Assembly: GCF_041381155.1 (NCBI RefSeq)
Contig: NC_091147.1
Location: forward strand, 27,997,349 to 28,061,348
Reading direction: 5' to 3'
Source: Argopecten irradians
Lineage: Eukaryota > Mollusca > Bivalvia > Pectinida > Pectinidae
Length of the DNA stretch: 64,000 bases
This document shows positions 1,023-43,800 of this stretch, piece after piece. The notes beneath the pieces were generated by a model. That model was not told the DNA's origin. It was given only the letters and a program-made list of their open reading frames with translations, and ran no database searches. Numbering within the stretch: the first letter of the stretch is position 1; each line of letters begins with the position of its first letter. Both the position numbers and the translations under genes were made by a program.

Positions 1023-4000
1023 ATGGCATCGACGCTCCTATTGACGCTGGTGTTATTGTGTATCGCTGTACATGGCGTCCACGCTAAGGCCACTATTGTC
1101 GGATTCGAGGAAACGCTTGAAGAGATACTAGAAGAACTCAAAGAGGAGGTGAAGAGGGATGAGCTGGAAAATGAACTCGAAGCAGCCAAGGAAAAGAGAA
1201 TTGTTCCGGGTGCACGAAATTTAAATGTCAATGAAACAACAAGAATTGCATTTGATTATGCATACAATATCGTACAGCATGATGAGGAATTAAAGAAATT
1301 TTATTACTACAGAGGTAAGTCTAGTTTTTTAGCATATTTTAGGTTTTTTTACGTTCCTGTATATTTATTAGAGACCACTTTATTTTGTGAGATTTAAAAT
1401 CCTGAAACGGAGCTCGAACTCGAATTCAACTGTTTCGCTAATTATTGTAGTTGAAAATGTGTATATATGCACAATTATTTGTAGGAATCTTTGATCGCAA
1501 AGTTTGGTATTCGAATTTATATTTAGTAATTAACTTCTATATATTTTTGATGTTTGGAGATTAACACAAATTCAGAGTGTACTCCAAATAAACAACACCG
1601 CGAAGCGGTTCGACGAGATTACACTCAGATAATTGTATCTCCTTAACATTAAAAAAATAAGTTCAAATTAATCCTTATAATAAAATTTACTAAAGCTAGT
1701 CTTTTCAAAATATGAAAAAAATTTGGGACTCTGTTTTTTCCCTGTTAAATCATTACGCCTTTATCTCGGCCAATCAGAAGCGACGTTACAAAAGGCGACA
1801 CCATTTTTCCCTTTATTGACTTATAAAGTAAATTTTTAAACTTTTGAAAATGCTTGTTACAAGCAAAATTGATTTATATCAAAATAACGATATCGTAAAA
1901 TAATATTTATATACGAGAATAAAGTGATTTACAGTAGTTGATTAGATCGTCATTGCGTTTATGTAACTAATACGCAATGGCGTAAGACTGTAAATCCACA
2001 ACGATACTACGTGTAATTCACGCATCGATAAAGATGTTGCGTCATGATAAGGTTCATTACTGTTTGTGCTTTATCAGCATTTCACATTTTAACAAATTCA
2101 TTTTGTGCGATGAAATGTATTTCGATCTGTAGACGTATACTTAGGGTCCCAAGACTGGTCGTGAGGCGGCATATCAAGCGTAGTATTACGTAGAAATTAA
2201 TTAAATATTTATTTAATTCAGCAAGGCATGGGTTGAAACACTTATACATTGCGGTAATATACACTTATTGCCCTGGTTTAAGGAGACATGAAGATTTGTT
2301 TCCCCGAGATGTTTCACGGGGGCCTAGAGGGAACATATTATATATCGGGGAAACAAATCCCCATGTCTCCCTCACACCAGGGCAATCATTGTTTTATTAT
2401 TCCGAATCTATAACTTATATGTTTAGTTACATGTACAAATAGTGCATAAAACTTTATAGACTACTATAAAAGTGTACAAAAAGTATACTTAATAGACAAT
2501 TGTGATATTTAACAAAAAGGAGGAAATGCAACAAAAACATTCTCCAACATATTATTTTTAGCACATTCAAATAATAAAATGATAAAATGTTTTCAACAAC
2601 TCCTTATCTATAACAGCACACTCTTTTTGTCAGATAGAAATTGTTATAAAACATCCGAGAGTTTCCGAGAGGGTTAGTCGACAGGGAAAATGGAACTAGT
2701 GGGTTCCGAGAGGAATGGTCGATATTTGTTTCCCGGACACGTGACTCTGTTAAACCCATCATCGGTATTGTTTTCTTGATGGGGAATAATGATGTGATTT
2801 AATCTTACTTGTACCAAACATTTCCATGGCTTTATAGCATAGCAATTGATTGATTGATACTACAGCGTAATAATTTCTAAAAGAAACGAGTTCCAAACGT
2901 ATGTTTGAGGACCAATAGAATTTCAGTCACCTATATATAGGAGTAATGAAAGAAGTTGATCTTAACCTTAAGTTCCTCAAAAACTCACAAACAGTTTTCA
3001 TTCGTCGACACTCTAAGTTATTTTATGTCCATTTGACCTTTGTCCCTCTTCACATACTCAAAACTATTTATTTGTGTTGGTGTGTCTATTTCATCCTCTT
3101 ATAATGAAGTCATATAAGCGGAATAAAGATATATAAATAACTCTAAAAATAATATTATTATGATATTGAGTTTTATCTTCAGTCTCATCAAACTTCCAAA
3201 TTCATTGACGGACTCTTTCCATTATGGGATCATTACGCGATAGTTTCAGCCAATCAGAAAGGACGTTACAAATTATCATTCATTAGCTTGTGAAATGATT
3301 TTACAAACAAAATATTTATGTTCATGACTTTATTTATGTTGCATCATATTTGTTGGGTTTATTATCTCAAGCATAGGTTTTTAGTTTATGAAAGGTTTGC
3401 AGTCTAGATTTAAAATTCATTTATGGATCATTTTGACAGGTAACAACATTGTAGCCTTCAGTACAGACCATAGTCAGGCAACTGAACTTCTGAGTAGCCA
3501 TGGGTACGACCTACAGAACAGAGAGTACATCATTTTCGAAGTGCGAGCCTGCAGTGATGCTCTGGTCACCCTTTTCCATAGCAACGGTGACACCTATACC
3601 ATCCACATATATGATGCTGTAAATTCTAAAACAGATTTATTGAAAAACTCTGTACTAGTTACAACTAACACAACCCAGTTTCCCTTACTGAACTGTAGCA
3701 GTTACAAAAGATTCCTAGTTAGCTGGTCGGACAAACATGTCCAGGTTTTACATGACCACGAGGATGAACAATTTGGCTGGAGTCAAGTTATAGACTGGCA
3801 GAATTCAATCGCGCAGCTTCAAATTGTTGATATAGAATTCGGCACAGCAGGGAATGTGGAAGGCCATTGGCGGACAGTCTACAGAGGTATAGTTTTCTTT
3901 TCACAATAGAAACATGGACGTTGCGTATGAATACGGAAAAATGGTATATTTAAATATTCTTTATGTTATCAATTAGTACATCACGTGACAGAATACTGGA

Positions 4001-7000: not shown

Positions 7001-10000
7001 GAAGTGCCAGTATTTTGGTTTTTGACACAGCTCGTAAATTCTTCTACCTACTTCGTTTCTTTTGATTTTGTCTTTTGTGCATGGTCATCGTGTATAGTGT
7101 ATAGTTCTTGAAGGCTTCTTTATTTTGCATAAACAATATTTCTCGAAGTCGTTATTTTCATTGTATTCAAGAATTCATAAATAAAATTCGTATTCGGTTC
7201 CATTTGTACCAGCGCAGATATTAAACAGCGGTGGTTAAATACCAAAAATATCCTTATACAATTTAGCGATGTACATGAATTAACGTTTCGAAGTTAGTGT
7301 ACAAGTTAGCTCAAAAAGCGCGAAATTGAAACTATCGCTAAAATAAATGTGTATACGGTAACACGTCTGCTTTTATTCTAGGTAATGAGCTATTGGTATT
7401 GTCATCCGATCAACCTGTCTTTGAACTGCTACAGAACCTCACAGCAAATTTTCCCGTTGTGCAAGAACCGTACATGGTATTTAAAGTGCAGTCTTGTAGC
7501 ACTGCTAGACTAGGATTGAAGGAAGACGCTGAGAATGACGGAAAGCTTTGGGAGATCACATTTGATATCGGATCTTTGGATGAGGTTCTCGTACGACGCA
7601 ATGTGGGTGCTGGTATAAAATCCCGGGGAGACATTATTGTCGACAACTGTAAGGATAATTTGACATTTTTCGTTAGCTGGCGGAATTCTTTGGTTCAGGT
7701 TTTCCAGCAGCATGGCGGTAGATGGCTAACAGTCTTAAAATGGTTTGACGCTAAAGGAAGAGATGTGTCTTTTGTTGGAGTGTCTGGAGTAGCCACATGG
7801 ACGGTTTACGATGACCACGAGACAGGTGTGTCATACATAAATTGATCAATATATATTATAAGATTCTTTCGTATGTGAATATGAAGGAAAGGGATATTAT
7901 ACCCAAGGATAACAATATGGTGTAAAACTCGAGGCTTGCCGAGGGTTTAACAACATTTTGTGATCTCAAGTGTAGAATATTCATATCTTATATATCTACA
8001 CATGAAAGAGTATTTTTCTCCGATATTTCGATGTTTTATTGCAATTTTACAACTATGATATCCCGCCATTTTGAGAAAAATATCGAAGAAAACCGCGACT
8101 GAAAGTCAATGCTCTATACATGAAAATTGCATAACTTTTTTAACGGAAGTACATTTGATTGCATCTATTATATTAAACCCAGACTAGTGTCTGAAAAATA
8201 TTAAGATAGTATAAAAATACCATGTACACGCACCATACTTTGATGCACAATAAAAACATAGAAAGCTATGGTAGTTATAGAGGCGGTAGAAGAAATAACA
8301 GCTTAGAAATGAAATAAACCGTACAAAATTAAATCTCTTTAGAAAGTAATAATACTGTATGTAAGTATCAGATCAATTCAAGTAGACCCTCGACAATTCG
8401 TATGCTTGCGTCATCACGAATGTCGAAATTCAACTACTCAGTTTATAGCAAATCTTTTTCGACTTTTGGGTATTTTGTATTTGCATATCACAGAGTTACC
8501 TCCCTTAAGGGTAGGTATCTATTGTGACGTCATTATTTTGTGAGCGCATCTCGCGTTGTTTTCTATGAAAAGTATGACGTTACTCACTGAAACACATGAC
8601 GTCACAATCAATACCTGCCCACAAGGGCAGATAACTCTGTAATATGCAAATACAGAATTCAGTATTATCGGCTTCCAGATTATCGCCGTTGCATTTTATA
8701 TGACCTGGTATGTTGTATTTCTAGGTATTGACCTTCCAGCCGGATCGACGACGTCAGAAACTATGTCCGGATTAAATGATATAGAGCATAATCTGACAGA
8801 GCTTGAGGAGGAGGAACACCGAGCCAATCTCGCCCTATATGCCCTTCAATATCTCTTGGACACGTAAGGCCGATGGACCATTTTTAGAAATGATATAAGA
8901 CATTATAAAGATTGTTTAAAAAACACCTGTTATCTCTATAGATAATATTTTGCATATTTAAAAACGAATTTCAATGCTTTAATATAATAGATGATATACT
9001 ATTTACATTTATTTAGACAAACTTCATGATGCGCGAATGCGCGTTTCTTCGATCTACACATGTGTCAGGCATTGTTTTCAGATAAACTACATAATGCACA
9101 AATGCGCATTTTAATATTTTGAATAGATACTCTTCAGAACTTTGACATCTATATAAACCGTATATTTTATCAAATATATAATTTGCCCAATTGAAGAGTC
9201 TCTGTGTGTATAACTTGTTGATATCTGACCAAGGAAACTGTGTATCAATTATTTAACACCACTAGATTGAACAGCCATTTTCATGGTCATCAATTGCCAT
9301 GATCTTAGGAACGATGGGTGGCGTCATAATGCTCACGTTTTGGATACCATTTGTTTCGCTATTATATAATAATTGTGACAAGCATATGTTATATTCTAGT
9401 AACATTCTATCATCCCATATACGAGTTCATGTAACGAAATTACTTGAAAAAAAGTGAGCCTTGAAATTTCGAAAGGAGATCTACAAAATCTCCTGTGAAA
9501 ACAACTTAACTTCAAGATATGTAATCACATAACTACGAAAACCTACTTTTCGAACCAGTATTGGCTTATTAAGTATGTAAATTGCAACAGCAAAAATACA
9601 CATTTTGTATTTTTGATATGTTTTTATTTCCATTAGTGGATTCGAGGGTGCCAAGACAGTAGAAGATTTGAAGGCGATCCCAGGGTTTTTAGAAGCATTT
9701 CGACAAGAACAGATGAACCGTGACAGGAAGGCATGTAACGAGAAAAACATAAAATGTAGGGATTTTAAGAAATCACCTTGGAGGTCAATGGATGGAACTT
9801 GTAACAATTTAATTCATGAAGGCCGGGGTTCAACGGGTACACCACAAGTCAGATTAGTCGCCGCCGACTACGCTGACGGTAAGAGTCAACTGATCTAGAA
9901 TGTCGACGTCTACCGACGCCACCATGTGTCAACAAACTCGACATTAGAATCTAGAATATTTTTAGACAGTTAACGCCTCTTTTCATATCAAAGTTGTCTG

Positions 10001-13000
10001 GTTATGACTTGCTCTATTTTTGTCATAGATAAGCGTTTAAGGTAGTCTACATATTATTCTCCATCTTCTCTAAATTTCAAACATCCCATATCTACCGAAT
10101 TTTATGAAATTCTAATTCAAAATGTTATCAAATAATTTAGTTTATATATTCATATATATTTTTTGCATGTACAACAGTTTTTGTTAGATTGAATATCATA
10201 TGATTTTTTTATCGTCTGTCGCAAGACATATGCGTCGACGAATGAGAATTTATTTAAATGCACTTGGCTATAGTTTACTTTAATATGTTTCAAAAATTAT
10301 ACGGCTAATGTCTTCATGGTTTACACAGGAAAAAGTGCAAACACGTTTTACGTACGTTATAAAACGCATGTAAAACGCATGTTGAGGACCACGCATGTAA
10401 AACGTACGTACGAAACGTATGTAATACATGTGTTAAACATGCGTAATACGCATGGTAAACAGACGTAAAACATAAACGCATGTAAAACGGACGTATCAAA
10501 ACATGTGTTATACATATGTAGCGGGATTGGACTGGGTCGATCATCGGTGACCAGGTAGCTCAGTCGGTAGAGCACTCGGCTAGTATTCGGAGGGTCCCGG
10601 GTTCGAATCCCGGTCTGGCCGCTACATTTTCTCCTCTCCTGTTACAAAATTGGCGCCCAACTAAATAACCCACGGTGGTGGTGTTTGGAAGGGTCTCGTA
10701 TGTCTTCGGGGGCGAAGACTTCGAGAAAGGAGGGAGGAGTGTAGCGGGATTGGACTGGGTCGATCATCGGTGACCAGGTAGCTCAGTCGGTAGAGCACTC
10801 GGCTAGTATTCGGAGGGTCCCGGGTTCGAATCCCGGTCTGGCCGCTACATTTTCTCCTCTCCTGTTACACATACGTTTGATCCTATTACAAAATCCACCT
10901 TTTTTTGTTTTTATGTACATTTACATTGTCTTTGAAGTTGCACCATATATTTGTCATTTTCAAAAGTAAAGTTTAGTTCTATTTTATTTGTATTTTCGGT
11001 TTCTGTCCAATGACTGATATCTTTTCATACATAGTAGGTTGTATAATTTCATAATCTTAGGATGATTTTATTTTTCCTACATCAATTTGTCCTTAACGTC
11101 ACTTTATCACTTACATTTTAAAGGCTGAAATCTTCACTGAAGTCGTGCCCAATGTTCAATTGTTTTCAAATTCTGGCTCAGAGAGTATAGAAATCAAGTT
11201 AAAAACTTCAGATGTTTAAACAGAATCTCAGAATAACATTTAAACCGTATTCTATGAATATACAATAAATAAGGATTTCCGGAAAATTGTCCGGCCATTA
11301 GAATCTATCATGTTATAGCACAGGTGTCTGATTCTGGTTTTGAAAACATACAATAACCTACCCCTACTATATAGTAGGGAAGGTTATTATTTTTTTAAAC
11401 CAGAAGCAGACGCCGGGCTATGGTATCGAGGATGATCAAACAGCAGTTGTAGACCTACTACATTGTACATCATGAAGCGCTGGTCAGCTGATATTGATCA
11501 TATGTATTCAGAGCATTAGTCTTCAAAACTGTTAAAATTTAAATATAAAAAGACGGAATCCACATTAGCGGTTTTGCTTCTGTTCACAATCAGTAGTTGT
11601 ACATATAATTGTAGACCTACATGTATTATCACACTTATATATTGAAGCTGCTTTATTCTATCATGTGGCTAATATGAGGTTCACTATAAGTTGGTAGAAG
11701 ACATATATAGATAAAATGAAACCAAACCATAGAGGCTATTAAACATGTATTTGCATATGGGAGTATCATTTTTGAAAAAAAAAACAAACAAAGAATTGCA
11801 GGTCTTCAATAACATTGATAAAACTATTGTTTTACGTGGATTTGTAGTGTTATTTTAACAGACGTCCGTTTTACATGTGGTGGAAAACAAACGTATGTAA
11901 AACATATGTTTAACATACGTTTAACACATGTTTTGTTCAAACGTACGTTTTACGCATGGTGGCCAAAACATACGTAAAACGCATGTTTTAAACATACGTT
12001 TGACGCATGTTTTTTCAAACGTATGTAAAACATGCGTTGCACTTTTTGCTGTGTAGGTGTAAACGACTTTGGCTGTCGATGTGTCGTTAAAGTAAAACAA
12101 ACACAGCATTAAAGTTTACATCTTCGAAAGAGTATAGCATTTCAGCTTTTTACTAATGTGTTACTAGTTTGATTTTTACAACAATTTATATGCATATTTC
12201 GTGATTTCTGTGGTCTTTTTTAAATCAAGATATATACAGTATATCTCCGATTTTAACGCAGAAACATCAAACCATAGAAACATTATCAGAAATCAGTCAG
12301 AACTTGTTAATATACATCATTTGTACACAAAATAGGACATAATAAACGTTTTTGTTTAAATTATTTTACACCAGTATGCTATGACGTCATAACAGTTGTT
12401 TTCAATGAAGTATATACTGTACACAAGGAAATTTACGCAAGGGGAACATTTACGCTAATTACGCAAAGTCCGCTTAATCGCGAAATTTTCCCCACGCATA
12501 ATGTTTTGTACATGTATGAACTTTGTTGTTTAATGTTTATACAATATTGCAAAAAAAAAAAAGAAAAAAAAAAAAAAAAAAAAACACACCAAAAACACCG
12601 CGAAATCTACATGCGTACAAATCGCGATATTAAACACTCACGAAAATATCCACGTTAACAGTACATGATCGACTACAATTTTTATTGAAAATAAATAAAA
12701 AGAAACAGAACAGTCCAGCTGTTCAAGTTGATTAAACCTATCACAGTTTTATACCAACTTCGACACCAATACACAGTAGAATCAATTAGTTTGATACTAT
12801 CTTCACAATGTTTTAATGATCATTCAGATTTGTATCTATCTTTTAATCTTATTGAATAGATAATCATGCAACAAATGATAATTAATTTGTCATGAATTAT
12901 GTGATTAAACAAAGCATCTTTTAAACAACGATTTTATAATCTGATATTAAAATCAGCTGCTTGTTTCTCCGCTTACTACGTGCTACGCCACAATCTTCCC

Positions 13001-16000
13001 CACTCCTATGAAACTCCATATATAAACTAATAATGCTTCTGTATTGTAGTGTAGCACGTAGCAAGAGGAGTAAAAATCACCTGATTTCTTTAGATCGACA
13101 ATTTTATTTATATGAATGTAAATCAACCAATATAAAAAATGTACTTTCGTTAATCTTCCATCGATAGTTACGTTGATTAACACGATATAAAAATATATAA
13201 ACAAAATGATGTTAATATAGGAAGTCTTTGAGAATGTTGTTTCAAGAAAGCAAACTAAACATTTGACATTGGAGTATTGTTTGTTGATCTTTCGTCTAGG
13301 TGTTACTGAGTTTAAGAAGCTCGGAGAAAATGGTCAGACGCTTCCAAGTGCCAGAGAAGTATCAGCTTTTGTATTAAGTGAGGGAAACTCTGCCAGTCCC
13401 CCAGACGATCCGAATAGGACCATAATGATGGCGGTAATGGGGCAGTTTTATGACCATGACATCACTGAGACACCTCTGACTAAAGGTACGGTCTGTGTTG
13501 TTAAAAGTGTATATTTACATTCCATGTTGCAATCGCCTATATATCACTAGTATACCAAATTGTAGTATATGAGAGTATGACTGCAATTTACAGTGATGAG
13601 GTCTCTGTATAGGAATACTATACCATGCTGTATGGTAACCTGAGGAACAATATTATATCTGGAAAATATCTGCTGTTCCGGTATTTGTATCTACTGACGT
13701 AAGCGATGTGACGAGCGCCAAATTCAAACGCATTATTAGCGATGTTTCTTAAAAAAATAGTTGAATGTAAATATAAGCAATAAACAGTTAACACATTGTA
13801 GCATATAGTCAATATGAATACAATATGGGTGACAGATAGACATTCAATTTATCTGTCACCAAAATTGTATTCATATTGACTATATACTACAATTTGGTAA
13901 CTGTTTATTGCTTAAATGAATCGCATTTGGAAATGTGTTGTTGTTTTTCTTGTTTCTTTCTTGTTTTTGTTTTTTTTTCAAACTTTTACGAAAGATATCA
14001 GAGGAAGATTTAATAAAAAAGTATAATCATATATCATCCGGTTAATATATGGTTACGAAATGTGTGTATTTTTAGGTAATTGAGGTTAAAGTTAACGCAA
14101 TGGTTTAAGTAAGCAATACTCTTACCGTTACCCCTTGCTCTAAAATATGACAATCACGTTATGTAGCTGTGAGATTGTTATCTTGTCCTCGTAAAAGGAG
14201 CGGATCGTTGTGGTTTGTACATAATGTTAAATAAATCGTTGTTACTGCTGACGGAGAATGTTTCTTTGGCTCAGTCAGTTGAGCCGTAGTTTTTCACACC
14301 AGAGACCCGGGTTCGAATCCTGATCGAGGCAATCGATAGGAATCATTTGTTTATTCTACCTGTACTTCTACATCCTTTACAGGAAATAACCCTGGGTCAA
14401 TTTTATTTAAATATAACGATTAGTTATTTAAGCTTTTCGAAATTTACCCATGCCTGATGTAGTGCAAATGTAAATACTCAACATTAAGATACAGGTATTA
14501 TGAAATAATGTATATTTCAGGCTATAGGGAGACTACCATCGGATGTTGTGATATAATTGACGAGCAAGTTCGTAATGAAAGGTAGGTGACTCTGTTTGCA
14601 GTACACTGTAAAATTATAAAGATAAGCTCATATCCTTCGGACGGCCGTGGCGTATGAATGCGTAATTATGCATTTGCCCCAAACTGCTTTCATAAATGTC
14701 AACACGTTATAACATAATATTGAAATTGAGACAGGTTCGAATACTGCCGGTCGTCAAAGTGTATATGTCCGAGCCAAATAACTGAGGGATGTGCAAAGTC
14801 TAAGCGATTAAAATTTTTGACATCCTGCTTCATGTCAGTACTTTTTCGTGAGTTTTACATATGTGTGGGGCAATTTCAAAACATTTTAGTCGTGTCGTCT
14901 GTTTTCCATGTTTCCTCTGTTTTCTAACGGTACAATGACCCACTAAAAGGTTTTGTGGTTTGTGGGTTTTATACGGAGTACCCGGATAAAAATCACCGCT
15001 TGATAATTGGTCCACATTGGATTCGAACTCTCGACCCAGATGTGGATGGTTTGTGGTAATATGGAAGACATTTTAACCATTCGGCCACCGCGACCCCAAA
15101 ATATTGTTCTCCACCAGCAATAAATAGTATATTGCATCAACTAAAAACCAATATTTTGTTCCAGTTTCAAGAGTTATTTAATTTACACATTTTGTTTTCA
15201 TTTAATTCAATAATAAAAGATAAGAAAATATATTTCCAATCAATATTTCAACAATTTAATGGAATTTTGTAAATCTATTTCTGCTTTAGATAAACACTAT
15301 TGTCTGATCATTTGTTCATTGTTATTAGATATTTACACTTTTACTTTCTTGAAAACAAATCTGATGATTTTTAAAAAGTGAATATATGGAAAAGTAATCT
15401 ATTTTTTCAAGTTGTTGTAATATCAACATGATAAAGCATCTGGTTTTAGTCTCATCAGGATGTAAAATTACTACGCTTCTGTTATTTTTAGAATTCAATG
15501 TAAGACCATTGAGATCCCAGCAAATGACCCTTTCTTTAACCATACATGCATGGCATTTAAGAGGTCATTGCCATCAAGGGGAGAAGACAAATGCGAACCA
15601 AGTAAGTTCAGCTCAGTATCCGTACTCGACATATGTACCATTACTAAGATGATTGTTCAATACAATTACATGTAATGCTAAATATCAATCAATGCTGCAA
15701 ACATGAAATGTTGTATAAAATGCACGTCCGTCAAGTCATTTTTTTACGAAATATCAAATGCTAGTTCTTGTTCAATGATAGGTATTGTTTATGCTTTGTT
15801 GGTGATGGAGCATCTTAAAATGAAAATACATATTTGAAGGGAAATAAACCTATTTTACAAATTAAAATACACACGTACACATAATTACACTTACTATATG
15901 ACTGTTAACAATTGTTGTTTATAATATTTCATTGATTGATATTTGACTATCGTTTTCTTGTCAGCTGTTCGTGAACAGATCAATGACATCACAGCTTTTG

Positions 16001-28543: not shown

Positions 28544-31500
28544 TCAAATGAAAGCCAGTTTTCTCTTCTTTTGTGTAATGAAAACTTCCATTACTCTATC
28601 CATATCAATTGGAATGTCTCTATGGACGTGGATCATTGCCAGGGACGAAAGACGATCTTGACGTGTCGTCGACCTAAGATACGTCTTAATACGCCTAAGA
28701 GCGCTAAATGAGCGCTCCGCTGTTGCAGTCGAGACCGGTATTGTCAATAGTATAATCAATATATTGCATATCGATGGGTAAAGTTGTTGTGCCGTACGGT
28801 CCAAAACTTCTGTCAGCTCATCTGGCCTGTCTCCCGCTATCTCCCATCTCGTTTTCCATCTCGATACTTCCTTTTCAAACTCTGCCTGCTCACAATGGAT
28901 GTCGGCCTGGTATGTATCATATATCCCTGAAACCTCTTGATCTGTTATGCCTCTAATGACATTTCTTGGCATGAGCTTGAATGCCGTGTAATGCGGCTCT
29001 CCTTTAAGGAGACGATCCTCCAACTCTTGCGCCATGTGATCGATGAACACATAGAAAAGGGAACGTCGCCAGTAGTCGGATGGCTCATCTGCTGGAATAT
29101 TTGCTCTGTGCTGCTGACGTCCTGCTCGTCGGGGTATCGATGGCACAACTCCATAGTCTTGGCCAATGACATTAGCCTCTTCATACAACGAAGTCCATAC
29201 TGCATCATCGGCGCGCTCTGCACGTAATTGTGTAATAACAACACGACACTCTTCCATCGCAGCCATCATGTCACAAGATTTGTCTTGGAGGAAGTACGAC
29301 AGGTGTACTACAATTCTCATAATATGCTCACAGACGACAAGTCCAATCACAAACTCGAACCGCAAAATGGAATTCAAGTACATCCCGGCTTTGTCGTCAT
29401 TTAAAGTTTGGAGATGCTCCAACGCCTGGACAACGACCGGAAACGCGTTTTTGAATGTAGAGAGTGCATCTGCTCTACTGATCCATCTGGTCTCACACAA
29501 CTGGGTAACCTTTGTTTTCTTGTCCATTGCTTCTTTGGCATTTAGATTGTTCTCAAGTTCCTCCATAAAGGTAGTCATACGTTTGGCTGAATAACCAAAC
29601 GCAAAACCAATTTCCTGAACGGTTGCCATCATAGTGCGAACACATTGTTCTTTACAACTGTGAACCACTGCAAGATTCAGACAGTGAGCTTTACAGTGAA
29701 CATATACCGCATTTGGCGCATACTGCTTCATCAGAGCTTGCACTCCGTTGACTCTTCCTGACATATTACTGGCACCATCATATCCTTGTGCTCGCATTAG
29801 GTCAATGGCGATATTTTTGGTCCTCATGAATTCAACCAAAAGGTCGCAAATGTCCGATCCCTTTAAGGACTTGGCATGCAAGAAACCTACAAAACACTCA
29901 TGAATTGATGACTCGCCACGATCATTAACATCAACAAAACGAAGACAAACACACAACTGTGTCTGTGTGGCTTTATCTGTTGTTTCGTCAGCAAGTAACG
30001 CAAAATAGTTTCCGCTACATTTTTGGAGAAGAGAGTCCTCGATTTGCTTACCGCAGATCTCTATTATTTCATTTTGAATATCTGGAGAAGTATATTTGAT
30101 TTTTGCATTGGCAAGATGATCTGCTAGTATTGGGTCATCCTTGGCAAACATGTGAAGTATGGACATCAAATTGCTCTTGTCCTCAACGTGTCCACGAAGT
30201 GGAATATTTTGCCGTCCACACATAACTATAACATCAATTATCTTTCTTAAGATGTGTCTGTTCTTTTCAACGTCAGCTTTGTGTGATGATGATATTGAAC
30301 TTACGATTGAATCTTTTTTTGTGGATTCAATATCAATGAAGTTCAAACCCATTTGGACGTAACCGTGATGTTGGGATTCTGGACTCAAATGACGCTTGAC
30401 AAACTGTCCAAGGTTGGCCCAGTCGGTAACAGGTGCCTTTAAGGTAAAAGTTTTCAATTTTGGGTCACTGTGTCCGAAAATGGTACAATGCACACAGTAC
30501 ACGCAGTCCTTTGTGATAGAGTACCTCATCCAATCATTCTGTTTCAGCCAAGCTGAATTTAATTTCCTCATTTTCCCACCAATCGATCTGTTAAAACAAA
30601 GCTAAGCAACCTTAGATGTTGATGGACCGCACAAACATAACATAATTACAACGCTATTTATCAAAACTCATGTAACTGGGTGCAGGATTTACAACAAATT
30701 TAATACCTGCCTCTACCAGGGATCGAACTCGGTACCTCTGAATTACTAACCTAACGCTCAACCGATTGAGCTATAGAGAAATTCTCTCTAGCCGAGCGGT
30801 ATATTGCGGTTAGTGTTGAATTTGGTTTCACTCATTTCAGCATTATTTGGAGATATCTAACAATTGGATGAGGATATATTGTTTGAACTTTTTCATCTCC
30901 ATTTATCCTGTACCCTCAAAATTAAATATTAAATAATGCGTTTCATTTTGGTATTAAACTTGCGTTATACTATCTATTTCCAATTATATGAAATCGCACA
31001 AATTTACTATATTATATAATTCATTAATATCAATCAATTAATTATACATTTGCATAAATTGATGGACATTTATGTGTCCGTATAGTATGACAAGCAATAT
31101 AACATTGAAACTAATTCCACGAGTTGTTTGTAATACAATGTATAAATATAAACTTTATATATTTTACATCGATTTCGAAACAAGTTATGCGCGCGAGGGC
31201 TCTTAAAGTGGGAGGAAACCGGAGTGCCCGGAGAAAACCCAAGTGATCGGGTAGGTGACCCTTGACCTTTTCACGTCCGTGCCGGAGATCGAACCCCGGC
31301 CGGATAGGTGAAAGGCGAGTGACTTAACCACTACACCACCCGAACACCGTATACATATACATGTATACGTACACGTTTTTTCAAAGCAACTTTTTGAAAA
31401 TATGAAGTTTGACTATACCAAGAGCATTTGAGATATGTATCTTGAACTAAGATGAGAGTGTTCTCCAACCTCAACCCCACCCCACCCTCCTAGTGTGAGC

Positions 31501-40396: not shown

Positions 40397-40580
40397 TGTA
40401 GAAGAACAGGGAAAATACATATGATTCCTGTCGAGTGTCCCAACCAGGAATCGAACCCCGGTCTCCGGTGTGAAAAACTACGGCTCTACCGACTGAGCCA
40501 AAGAAGCATGCTCCGTCAGCTGAGTGACAGAGACCGTATTTAACACTATGTACAAGTCACACCGACCCGCTCCTTTTACA
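40397..40580 (-). mobile_element. Solo-LTR-like element with tRNA-like core, family 2
   Basis: This 184-bp element reads TGTAAAAGGAGCGG ... TTCTACA on the - strand, with exact CATG duplications outside (40393-40396, 40581-40584). The core has A box TGGCTCAGTCGG and B box GGTTCGATTCC, and a TTTT lies just downstream in the same sense. It is the better-preserved partner of 14190-14372. It lies about 150 bases beyond the ASCC1 polyadenylation signal. Confidence 0.8.
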
Positions 40581-40836: not shown

Positions 40837-43800
40837 CTATGGTAACAGAAGTGACCCCTCACATCCATAGTAACCATCTTTAGCGACACCAAGTCTCTGT
40901 GAAAGGTGAATTGTTTTCATGTGGTGTTCACCAAAATCATATTCTCCAAATTTCTGAAAAATATAAAATCATACGTTTTTATAATACACAACATCGATAC
41001 GTATAACAATTGTGAAATCTTAATTGAGTAAAATCATGTTTTTTTCTGACAATGGAGAAAAAGACGTATCAAGGGACATAACTCATAATATGAATAAAAT
41101 CAATGTTTACAGTTGTACATGATTGTATTAATTATATAGAATCTTAACAGCTAATGTTCTAATACAGAATGATAGATAAATCATCTTCGTGAAGGCACTA
41201 AAATGGGGGTTCAAAATCGAGAGTCTCCCTCCAAAATAGGAATGGTTGGCAAGTATGAGGCAGTCACTACTAATGTGAGTATATAATTTGTTTGTGCTCA
41301 CCTAAGTCCAAAAAGGCCCCAATGTGACATAACATTTAAACTTTCGATAAAATAAGAACCAAGAGATCCCAAAGGAATCTTGTGCCCATCATTGAATGAT
41401 GTACGTTTAAGGAAGGAGGGATCTTTCATCTGCTCTTCCCTTTCTTTCCATCTTCAATTGAAGAATTTGATAAACACAAGGGAAACTACATAATGTCTAC
41501 ATAACAGCAATGCAAAATACTTCAATCATCAAAATCTGGGTCCTTTTCGAATTCTAATCAGTTCCATATTGTGATATATATGCCAAACTACATAGAGGGA
41601 ACCCTGCATTTGCAAATGACTCTGTATAAAGACCACCTCTGTACAAAGACCACCTGCTTAATAAGACCTTTTTAGGATACTCAATAGTAATTTATAATAT
41701 TTTGATCCAGTTACAAAGACCACTTTTCCCTCATAGACTTTTATATTTACACCTGCTCGGTTTGTTCACTATACACAAATACTAGCCGATTTTGTTTACC
41801 ATAACTGCATTGAACTTTGAACTTGCGTATGAAAATGTTCTATGTAACTTAAAGCGGTTACTTTTTTTTTAAAAGAAACACATGGCTTTGTTTACATTTT
41901 GATGCAACATTACGCGTATGTTGATGTTTTTCATAGAATTTTGGAAAAATGTAAACAATACATATATTTTTTATATTTATACATGATACCAACATTTTTT
42001 AAATTAACAATTGTAAAAGAAACAGGAAAAATATCCCGACCGGGGCGATGTGCAGTGCTGTCAAATGTAAACATTACCTCTGTGTCTGTGTTAGGCCTAC
42101 AATCTAGTCTTTGGAGTGGACGGGCATGAGACCCTCTGACAGAGGTCAGTTATAAACATATCCTCTTGTCTTTGTTCTTTGAGAATTTAATCATGTGTAT
42201 TATAAAATATGCACCTCTAGTAATCCACGTGTGTTAATTCCAAATGGCTGTCTATTGGCCATCTGGAGTCTTTATTTGTCCTCATAACGCAATGCTCATA
42301 ACTATAGCCACCAAAAGATACATACAAATGAAAATTCAAGAGAAATCCCTTCTATAATTTCTGAGAAATAGCGATAACAAACTCCAATTGTCAAAATATA
42401 TTATGATTGGTCCCAAAATGCAAAATGCATAAATAACTAGCTATAGACACCAATTGGAACAGATGCATGAAGTTTGAAAGAGATCCTTTCATTACTTTCT
42501 GAGAAATAGTGATATCAAATTTAATTGTCTAAATCCAAGATGACTGCCTATCGACCATCTTCGTTTTCAGATTGGTCCCAAAATTGAACCATGTTTTTGT
42601 TTCACTATTACTCATTTCCTAAGGACAAAAAGAACTTTATATATATATAAAATGAGACAGATCCCTTCAGAACTCTCTGAGCAATACCAAGAATTGTTTA
42701 TGGACAAGAAGGTTGCATGAGCAACTAACAACAAATGACGGGAGACATGAATAGTCTCCCTCCCCTCTCCCCCAGTTTTATTTCATCAAACAACGTAAAA
42801 CAGAACTACCATGAATTATAAAATGATGCAAGATTTATGTAAAATATCAAACTAACTTTAAGCAGACTCATTGCATCAAAAGACTCCCTTTCCTTGTGTT
42901 GTGGACCCTTCTGATCTCTCTGATCGTTAGAGTGTGACTTTCGGTCTTGGTGTCTGGGTACTGTTGCACCAGTAGGATCGCGCCTCATTTTGGTATTCAT
43001 GACAGTTATGTGAAGCTTGACCGAGGCATATGACTCCTGCATAAGACCAGTGATGCTGAACTTATCAACAATACGGTCCACCAAAATCTGTAGTCTGTAG
43101 AAAAGGAAAAATAGCTTAATTGTTTGCTTGACAAACGTTGGAATATCGTGACTGAAAGGGCACTTTTGTTATTGGTGTTTTGTAGGAGGGGACTTAACTC
43201 TGCGACCACTAATAATACTAATGACAGTAACCCTTAACTTTCATATTCGCCAGAAACTGAGCAGTCATGCATAATGATGATTGGCAACAAAACAAGAATT
43301 CCTACCTACATGTGACTTCTTTTTGGTAATAATTCAATTTTGGATTTACAGTAATAAAAGTTCTATTGACATAACTTGTAGGTATTATAGTAACTAGTAC
43401 TGTGTTCACTTGTATATAATTTACATAAATTCTGATAGCATAGCCCTAAATGGTGAAAATTGACAAAGTTGTGTAACATGAAAGGAGAAAATGTTATGGC
43501 CAGATCAGAATACTAGCTAGATGCTCTACTGACTGAGCTATCTGGTCGATGATCATTGACCCAGAATAATTCTGGTAAATTGAATAGCACATGGAAACAA
43601 ATTGGTTAACAGTAATTAAACTGAGCAAATAATGAGAAAGCTCCATTAGTATACTGTCTCTACTTATATATTTTATATACAATTGAATATAAAAACAAAT
43701 AATGTATAGCCTGATATTTTCGCGGATACATTTTCACAATTTCACAGGACATTGTTAAGATAGCAAAAATTTGATCCGTGAAAAAATTAAAGGGCCACTA

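Follow-up and report, generated by a model that had tools for sequence, protein, structure and literature searches.

A Helenus-type TRIM with a tRNA-like unit in each LTR in Argopecten irradians, and rare head-to-head LTR composites that seem to preserve steps of its copying

The closest described system is Helenus (Kojima 2024, PMC10886601), with 51 families in bivalves, among which Pteriomorphia is the lineage known to carry it. According to this source, Helenus elements are TRIMs of 311-1263 bp with a tRNA-derived sequence, including boxes A (TRGCY, YGG) and B (GGTTC), in each of two short LTRs, a primer-binding site (PBS) to a tRNA 3' end that they share with Gypsy elements, a polypurine tract (PPT), no coding region and, in animals, 4-bp target duplications. 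tRNA-Lys is among the bivalve primers, tandem arrays are reported for one family, and some families are predicted to encode tRNA-Thr. Pol III transcription of Helenus is expected in this source and not demonstrated there. The plant TRIM Cassandra likewise has a small-RNA gene in its LTR, in this case 5S rRNA and not a tRNA, and is 565-860 bp long (PMC10886601). Another animal TRIM, Ajax of nemerteans, also has an LTR that holds a unit of Pol III type; unlike in Helenus, this is part of a 5S rRNA, and the duplications are of 5 bp (PMC10886601). Finally, biv-TRIM (Satovic 2019, PMC6934838) is a bivalve TRIM with a short interior, a purine tract and tandem arrays; its repeats measure 202-218 bp and its interior 77-80 bp, its PPT is GGGGAGA, no unambiguous PBS is described, and a TGATCCCAAAGGAC segment is conserved in all species but one.

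The element studied here, a copy of what we call family A, lies in a window of 64,000 nucleotides (the whole stretch of DNA that was analysed). Its features are:

10513..10516, target duplication CATA, left
10517..10869, plus strand, complete family A element, 353 bp (LTR of 130 bp, interior of 93 bp, LTR of 130 bp)
10517..10646, plus strand, 5' LTR, 130 bp, identical to the 3' LTR
10549..10622, plus strand, tRNA-Thr(AGT)-like unit of the 5' LTR (ARAGORN, Rfam)
10556..10567, plus strand, box A TAGCTCAGTCGG of the 5' LTR (from the sequence, motif after PMC10886601)
10600..10611, plus strand, box B GGTTCGAATCCC of the 5' LTR (from the sequence, motif after PMC10886601)
10627..10630, plus strand, TTTT after the tRNA-like unit, a possible Pol III stop (second copy at 10850-10853)
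10651..10661, plus strand, PBS TGGCGCCCAAC, 11 nt complementary to the 3' sequence of this genome's tRNA-Lys
10723..10739, plus strand, PPT, a run of 17 purines abutting the second LTR
10740..10869, plus strand, 3' LTR, 130 bp, identical to the 5' LTR
10772..10845, plus strand, tRNA-Thr(AGT)-like unit of the 3' LTR (ARAGORN, Rfam)
10870..10873, target duplication CATA, right

Both LTRs of the window copy open with TGTAGC and close with GTTACA, the PBS starts 4 nt inside the border of the first LTR, and no coding region lies between PBS and PPT. An earlier note on this DNA had called the element a TRIM from these identical TG...CA repeats, the CATA duplication, the PBS and the purine tract, and the call is borne out. 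The note had also named an extension of the repeats beyond TG/CA as fatal to an LTR reading; the identity ends exactly at these dinucleotides, with not one further base on either side. The same borders were found again across the genome and are therefore not a product of chance. As an observation apart, ACGTATGT-like repeats form two inverted clusters (10349-10520 and 11862-11995) about 1.4 kb apart, one of which the element adjoins.

Compared by description with the published families, family A is a member of the already described Helenus kind. It is a TRIM of 353 bp, within the Helenus length range, with a tRNA-derived sequence in each short LTR, boxes TAGCTCAGTCGG and GGTTCGAATCCC that agree with the published motifs, a PBS of 11 nt to the 3' end of tRNA-Lys (Gypsy-like loci with the full site occur in the same genome), a PPT and 4-bp duplications. 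The earlier suggestion that no mollusc family of this kind was established is accordingly wrong, given the 51 bivalve families of Helenus. Cassandra's 5S rRNA has no counterpart here, as Rfam at its gathering score finds only tRNA. Membership in biv-TRIM was rejected as well, on LTRs of 130 bp, an interior of 93 bp and a PPT that ends in GGAGGGAGGAG.

That a tRNA-like unit sits inside each LTR, as first proposed from the letters, was confirmed by ARAGORN and by the Rfam tRNA model (50.2 bits, E 9e-8 in the 64-kb window). Read from the alignment, the unit has two non-standard pairs, one in the acceptor stem and one in the anticodon stem. Taken alone it shows no excess fold stability (z 0.35; 122 of 200 shuffles fold at least equally well), so that its tRNA likeness rests on the models and the boxes and not on stability.

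The copy census covered the element's own genome (845,758,899 bases or 845.8 Mb, 1508 contigs). The first 22 nt of the LTR, with up to 3 mismatches, occur 3035 times as family A LTR starts, against 1 occurrence of the reversed control; a 22-nt pattern across the LTR-PBS junction, again with up to 3 mismatches, gave 1210 hits and none for the control. If each such junction is taken as one two-LTR element, up to 2420 of the 3035 LTR starts (~80%) may belong to pairs, which is an upper estimate from the two patterns. A search with the whole element, in which the best 40 of 2437 first-look candidates were scored, returned at least 49 matches at 47 loci; a full-length query favours full-length copies, and this search is therefore silent on solo LTRs. 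Eleven of the 47 loci were set aside, as they come from four places where LTR-interior units follow one another in series; 36 single insertions were left. Their 4-bp duplications are perfect in 28, with one mismatch in 5, two in 2 and three in a single case (L008), in which the first two LTR bases are altered. The copies thus bear out the duplication and the paired arrangement that the note had expected of them. Neither unpaired copies nor an extension past TG/CA refuted the LTR reading, and the proposed LTR cycle is supported. In 14 of the 35 insertions with comparable LTRs the two LTRs are identical; averaged over the 35, they differ by 0.91 per 130 bp. The copies compared are the best-matching ones and are young, and the genome-wide mean will be older. 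The 11-nt PBS is invariant in 29 copies of equal length; they stem from the first 30 loci, of which the last, shorter by one base, was omitted. Among the places with units in a row, the outer flanks read TAAT/TAAT at L044 and CATG/CACG at L045; those of L046 have no 4-bp duplication, but show a 9-bp repeat, GTAACATTG.

The same comparison brought out a variable site within the tRNA-like unit. At LTR position 73 (window 10589 and 10812) the two LTRs read G/G in 13 of 35 elements, T/T in 17 and are mixed in 5. By the alignment, the anticodon-stem partner of G73 in the window copy is C61, and a T would break this pair. About half of these elements are without the 73-61 pair, and this speaks against selection for a functional tRNA-Thr. 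The elements whose two LTRs differ at this site, which is variable throughout the family, suggest sequence exchange between copies after insertion, with recurrent mutation as the alternative.

Family A is not the only tRNA-bearing LTR family in the window, which also contains:

14190..14372, plus strand, family B (the second tRNA-bearing family), solo LTR flanked by TCCT
30671..30830, minus strand, family D (the third tRNA-bearing family), solo LTR of 160 bp flanked by TGAG
40397..40580, minus strand, family B, solo LTR flanked by CATG
43472..43579, minus strand, degenerate relative of the family A LTR that lacks the box B region

The stretches at 14190-14372 and 40397-40580 look like SINEs and can be aligned with each other, yet are solo LTRs of family B; the third ARAGORN match of the window lies inside the solo LTR of family D. 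Each of these three solo LTRs has a perfect 4-bp duplication. The degenerate LTR scores 94 against a best of 58 among 2958 random stretches of the window, and no perfect 4-bp duplication was seen at its borders. A genome search with the 184-bp family B LTR (best 40 of 1417 candidates scored, at least 68 matches) demonstrated that complete B elements exist, many of the matches being paired, with LTRs of 181 bp that lie 87 bp apart. Perfect 4-bp duplications flank four of five complete copies (TACG, ATAG, CAAG, ATTT); the fifth, L086, has none. Families A and B share their interior leader: from TTGGCGCC on, the first 21 nt are the same in A and in all five B copies, and 23 nt in four of the five. 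A genome search, by one pattern, for an autonomous element with the shared TAAATAACC leader found none, its single match being a family B copy.

The 18-nt primer site for tRNA-Lys followed by one T was taken as the pattern for a search of the whole genome, which gave 61 sites (control 0), of which 30 were read. Different leaders follow in 26 of them, and these are not composites. Beside full tRNA-Lys primer sites, five of eight open frames (at seven loci) have a Pfam match, two below the curated cutoff, and the domains include gag, PNMA, RNase H, Ty3 capsid and integrase. In the four remaining sites (L059, L061, L067, L069) what comes after the primer site is its reverse complement or additional tRNA sequence. 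A search for palindromic junctions with up to 2 mismatches gave 39 hits (control 0): six fitting places, L061, three hits that read these places in reverse, and 29 that were taken, from their letters, for ordinary leaders. The six places are L059, L067 and L069 together with L078, L079 and L080; L061 brings to seven the composite loci, in which two LTRs are joined head-to-head through the primer site.

LTR B is joined to a reversed LTR A in both L061 (GTTT on both sides) and L067 (CCTG on both sides). In L078 the partner of the reversed LTR A is a 532-bp LTR (E), and TTAC flanks the whole. It was this duplication that gave a first guess at where E starts, about 0.5 such strings being expected by chance; the guess is supported by two further copies, L088 and L089, whose similarity begins at the same base, and of which L089 has a CCTA duplication of its own and L088 has none. 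L059 joins a sequence that contains AATAAA to a reversed LTR D, and a duplication, searched from one guessed border, was not found. In L069, LTR A is joined to sequence without an assigned family. L079 consists of an LTR like that of L050 joined to its own reverse, and L080 of an L050-like LTR joined to a reversed LTR A, in a rearranged stretch and with no duplication by one guessed string; both contain Gypsy-like LTR sequence in both orientations. A perfect 4-bp duplication is thus established in three of the seven composites (L061, L067, L078). An abstract-level literature search found no description of head-to-head LTR composites with primer sequence, although one may still be published, and the parts of PMC10886601 available to us make no mention of them.

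The letters at the junctions bear on how the composites arose. In native A and B interiors, agreement with the complement of tRNA-Lys ends after 11 nt. It continues to 18 nt in L067, on the B side, and to 40 nt in L061. Counted back from the CCA end, the 40 nt reach tRNA position 37, and the last three of them are common to A's leader. Because the A and B interiors leave the complement after 11 nt, a native leader cannot supply either extension. The 18-nt site of L067 could stem from another element with a full primer site; for the 40 nt of L061 no source was seen other than the tRNA or its gene. A 37-nt tRNA-Lys stretch has 35 matches in the genome, of which 34 are exact and the other is L061, with its sole change at position 58. 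In HIV-1, plus-strand strong-stop DNA is reported to stop mainly before m1A58, with minor stops at ms2t6A37 among others (PMC13191261). The junction types of L067 and L061 match these two strong-stop ends, and the change at 58 is what a misread methylated A would give, the modifications of the host tRNA-Lys being assumed. Each junction type (18 nt, 40 nt) is represented by one locus, and the single change in L061 could be an ordinary mutation that hit this one of 37 positions by chance.

We consider it likely that the composites are by-products of reverse transcription inserted by an integrase. Plus-strand strong-stop DNA of one LTR element would have copied 18 nt of the primer tRNA-Lys, ending before position 58, or 40 nt, with a misreading at 58 and an end near 37. 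It would then have been elongated along the plus strand of another element, giving an LTR-PBS::PBS-LTR molecule with a U3 end on both sides, which was inserted with 4-bp duplications. Our confidence would be higher if the 18-nt site of L067 could not come from another element with a full site. The alternative, which concerns the composites only, is ordinary recombination, either between neighbours in inverted orientation, through the self-complementary GGCGCC, or with some other element whose leader bears the full 18-nt primer site. GGCGCC is indeed a palindrome, full primer sites are available (the 61 reported above, with other leaders at 26 of the 30 read), and four of the seven composites have no established duplication; against this, the perfect duplications of L061, L067 and L078 stand outside both LTRs, as for one insertion, and the 40 nt of tRNA-Lys complement in L061 far exceed any such leader read. 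We regard recombination as a rather unlikely origin, though one to be taken seriously. Read as strong-stop products, these rare back-to-back copies seem to preserve frozen steps of copying. They support tRNA-Lys-primed copying in the company of other LTR elements, and L078 and L080 hint at particles shared with longer LTR elements, the helper not being named by them. Independently of the composites, exact tRNA-Lys 3' stretches recur in steps of ~2.4-2.8 kb at C15:3407578-3435162 (11 stretches), C16:16665602-16684913 (8) and C762:2699-22644 (9), and this regular spacing suggests tandem units that bear tRNA-Lys.

For the window element itself, by far the most probable explanation is that of a complete, recent Helenus-type TRIM, i.e. 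a non-autonomous LTR retrotransposon with a tRNA-like unit in its LTR. The RNA would start at the tRNA-like unit, probably by Pol III, and part of it would read through the TTTT in the 5' LTR. It would enter the particles of a Gypsy-type element, tRNA-Lys would prime reverse transcription, and the integrase of the Gypsy-type element would insert the copy. The anatomy, the duplications of the single insertions, the numbers of LTR starts and LTR-PBS junctions against their controls, the invariant PBS and the existence of a published kind count in favour, as do the Gypsy-like frames near full tRNA-Lys sites and the tRNA-Lys sequence of L061 and L067 together with their perfect duplications. Against it count the lack of excess fold stability, the 3 of 36 insertions with two or three mismatches in the duplication and the absence of an autonomous element with the shared leader from our one-pattern search. 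The TTTT directly after the unit would moreover shorten Pol III transcripts and so counts against the proposed mechanism.

The best surviving alternative keeps the same LTR element and has it transcribed by Pol II, from outside or from within the LTR, with the tRNA-like unit as a passenger. It gains from the TTTT, present 3' of the unit in both LTRs of 34 of the 36 single insertions, and from position 73, where T/T (17/35), which would break the anticodon-stem pair, outnumbers G/G (13/35). It has to contend with boxes A and B, which recur in three LTR families (A, B, D) that differ elsewhere, with the absence of AATAAA from the 130-bp LTR, and with the conservation of both boxes, from which Kojima argues (PMC10886601). 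On balance we think Pol II transcription of a passenger unit improbable. SINEs usually have a tail at their end and longer target duplications. A tRNA-derived SINE moved by a LINE and inserted twice at one place would explain the head with boxes A and B, and was rejected as very improbable in view of the short 4-bp duplications and of the hundreds of copies in which identical units with exact TG/CA borders lie 93 bp apart and enclose a PBS and a PPT. Just as improbable are tandem tRNA-Thr genes kept for translation: both ARAGORN and Rfam call a tRNA, and seven bivalve Helenus families are predicted to be able to encode tRNA-Thr (Kojima, PMC10886601), but the similarity spans the whole 130 bp and the interior, the copies are dispersed with target duplications, two stem pairs are non-standard and position 73 is polymorphic.

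With ~3000 LTR starts, the Helenus-type TRIM analysed here is present at high copy number in this genome, and two further tRNA-bearing LTR families are added within the same 64 kb. Such LTRs will be counted as tRNA-Thr genes by tRNA gene callers. If the composites hold up, genomes with Helenus or Gypsy elements could be searched for junctions that identify the primer tRNA. Such junctions would also reveal at which points modifications of this tRNA halt or mislead the polymerase, and between which elements a particle was shared. Should the strong-stop reading be true, composites would be genomic fossils that record which tRNA served as primer, how it was modified and that Helenus shared particles with other elements. 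How such TRIMs keep their helper dependence, and which element helps Cassandra, are stated as unknown in PMC10886601; composites that hold up would offer a way into the question of helper dependence.

Other features of the window include a hAT-type transposase, encoded by a 685-aa open frame on the minus strand (28544-30601) in which DUF4371 and a hAT dimerisation domain are found. Two open frames on the plus strand, 3385-3909 and 7342-7845, match Methyltransf_FA, the second just below the Pfam cutoff, and flank a strong skew of G over C at 4-8 kb.
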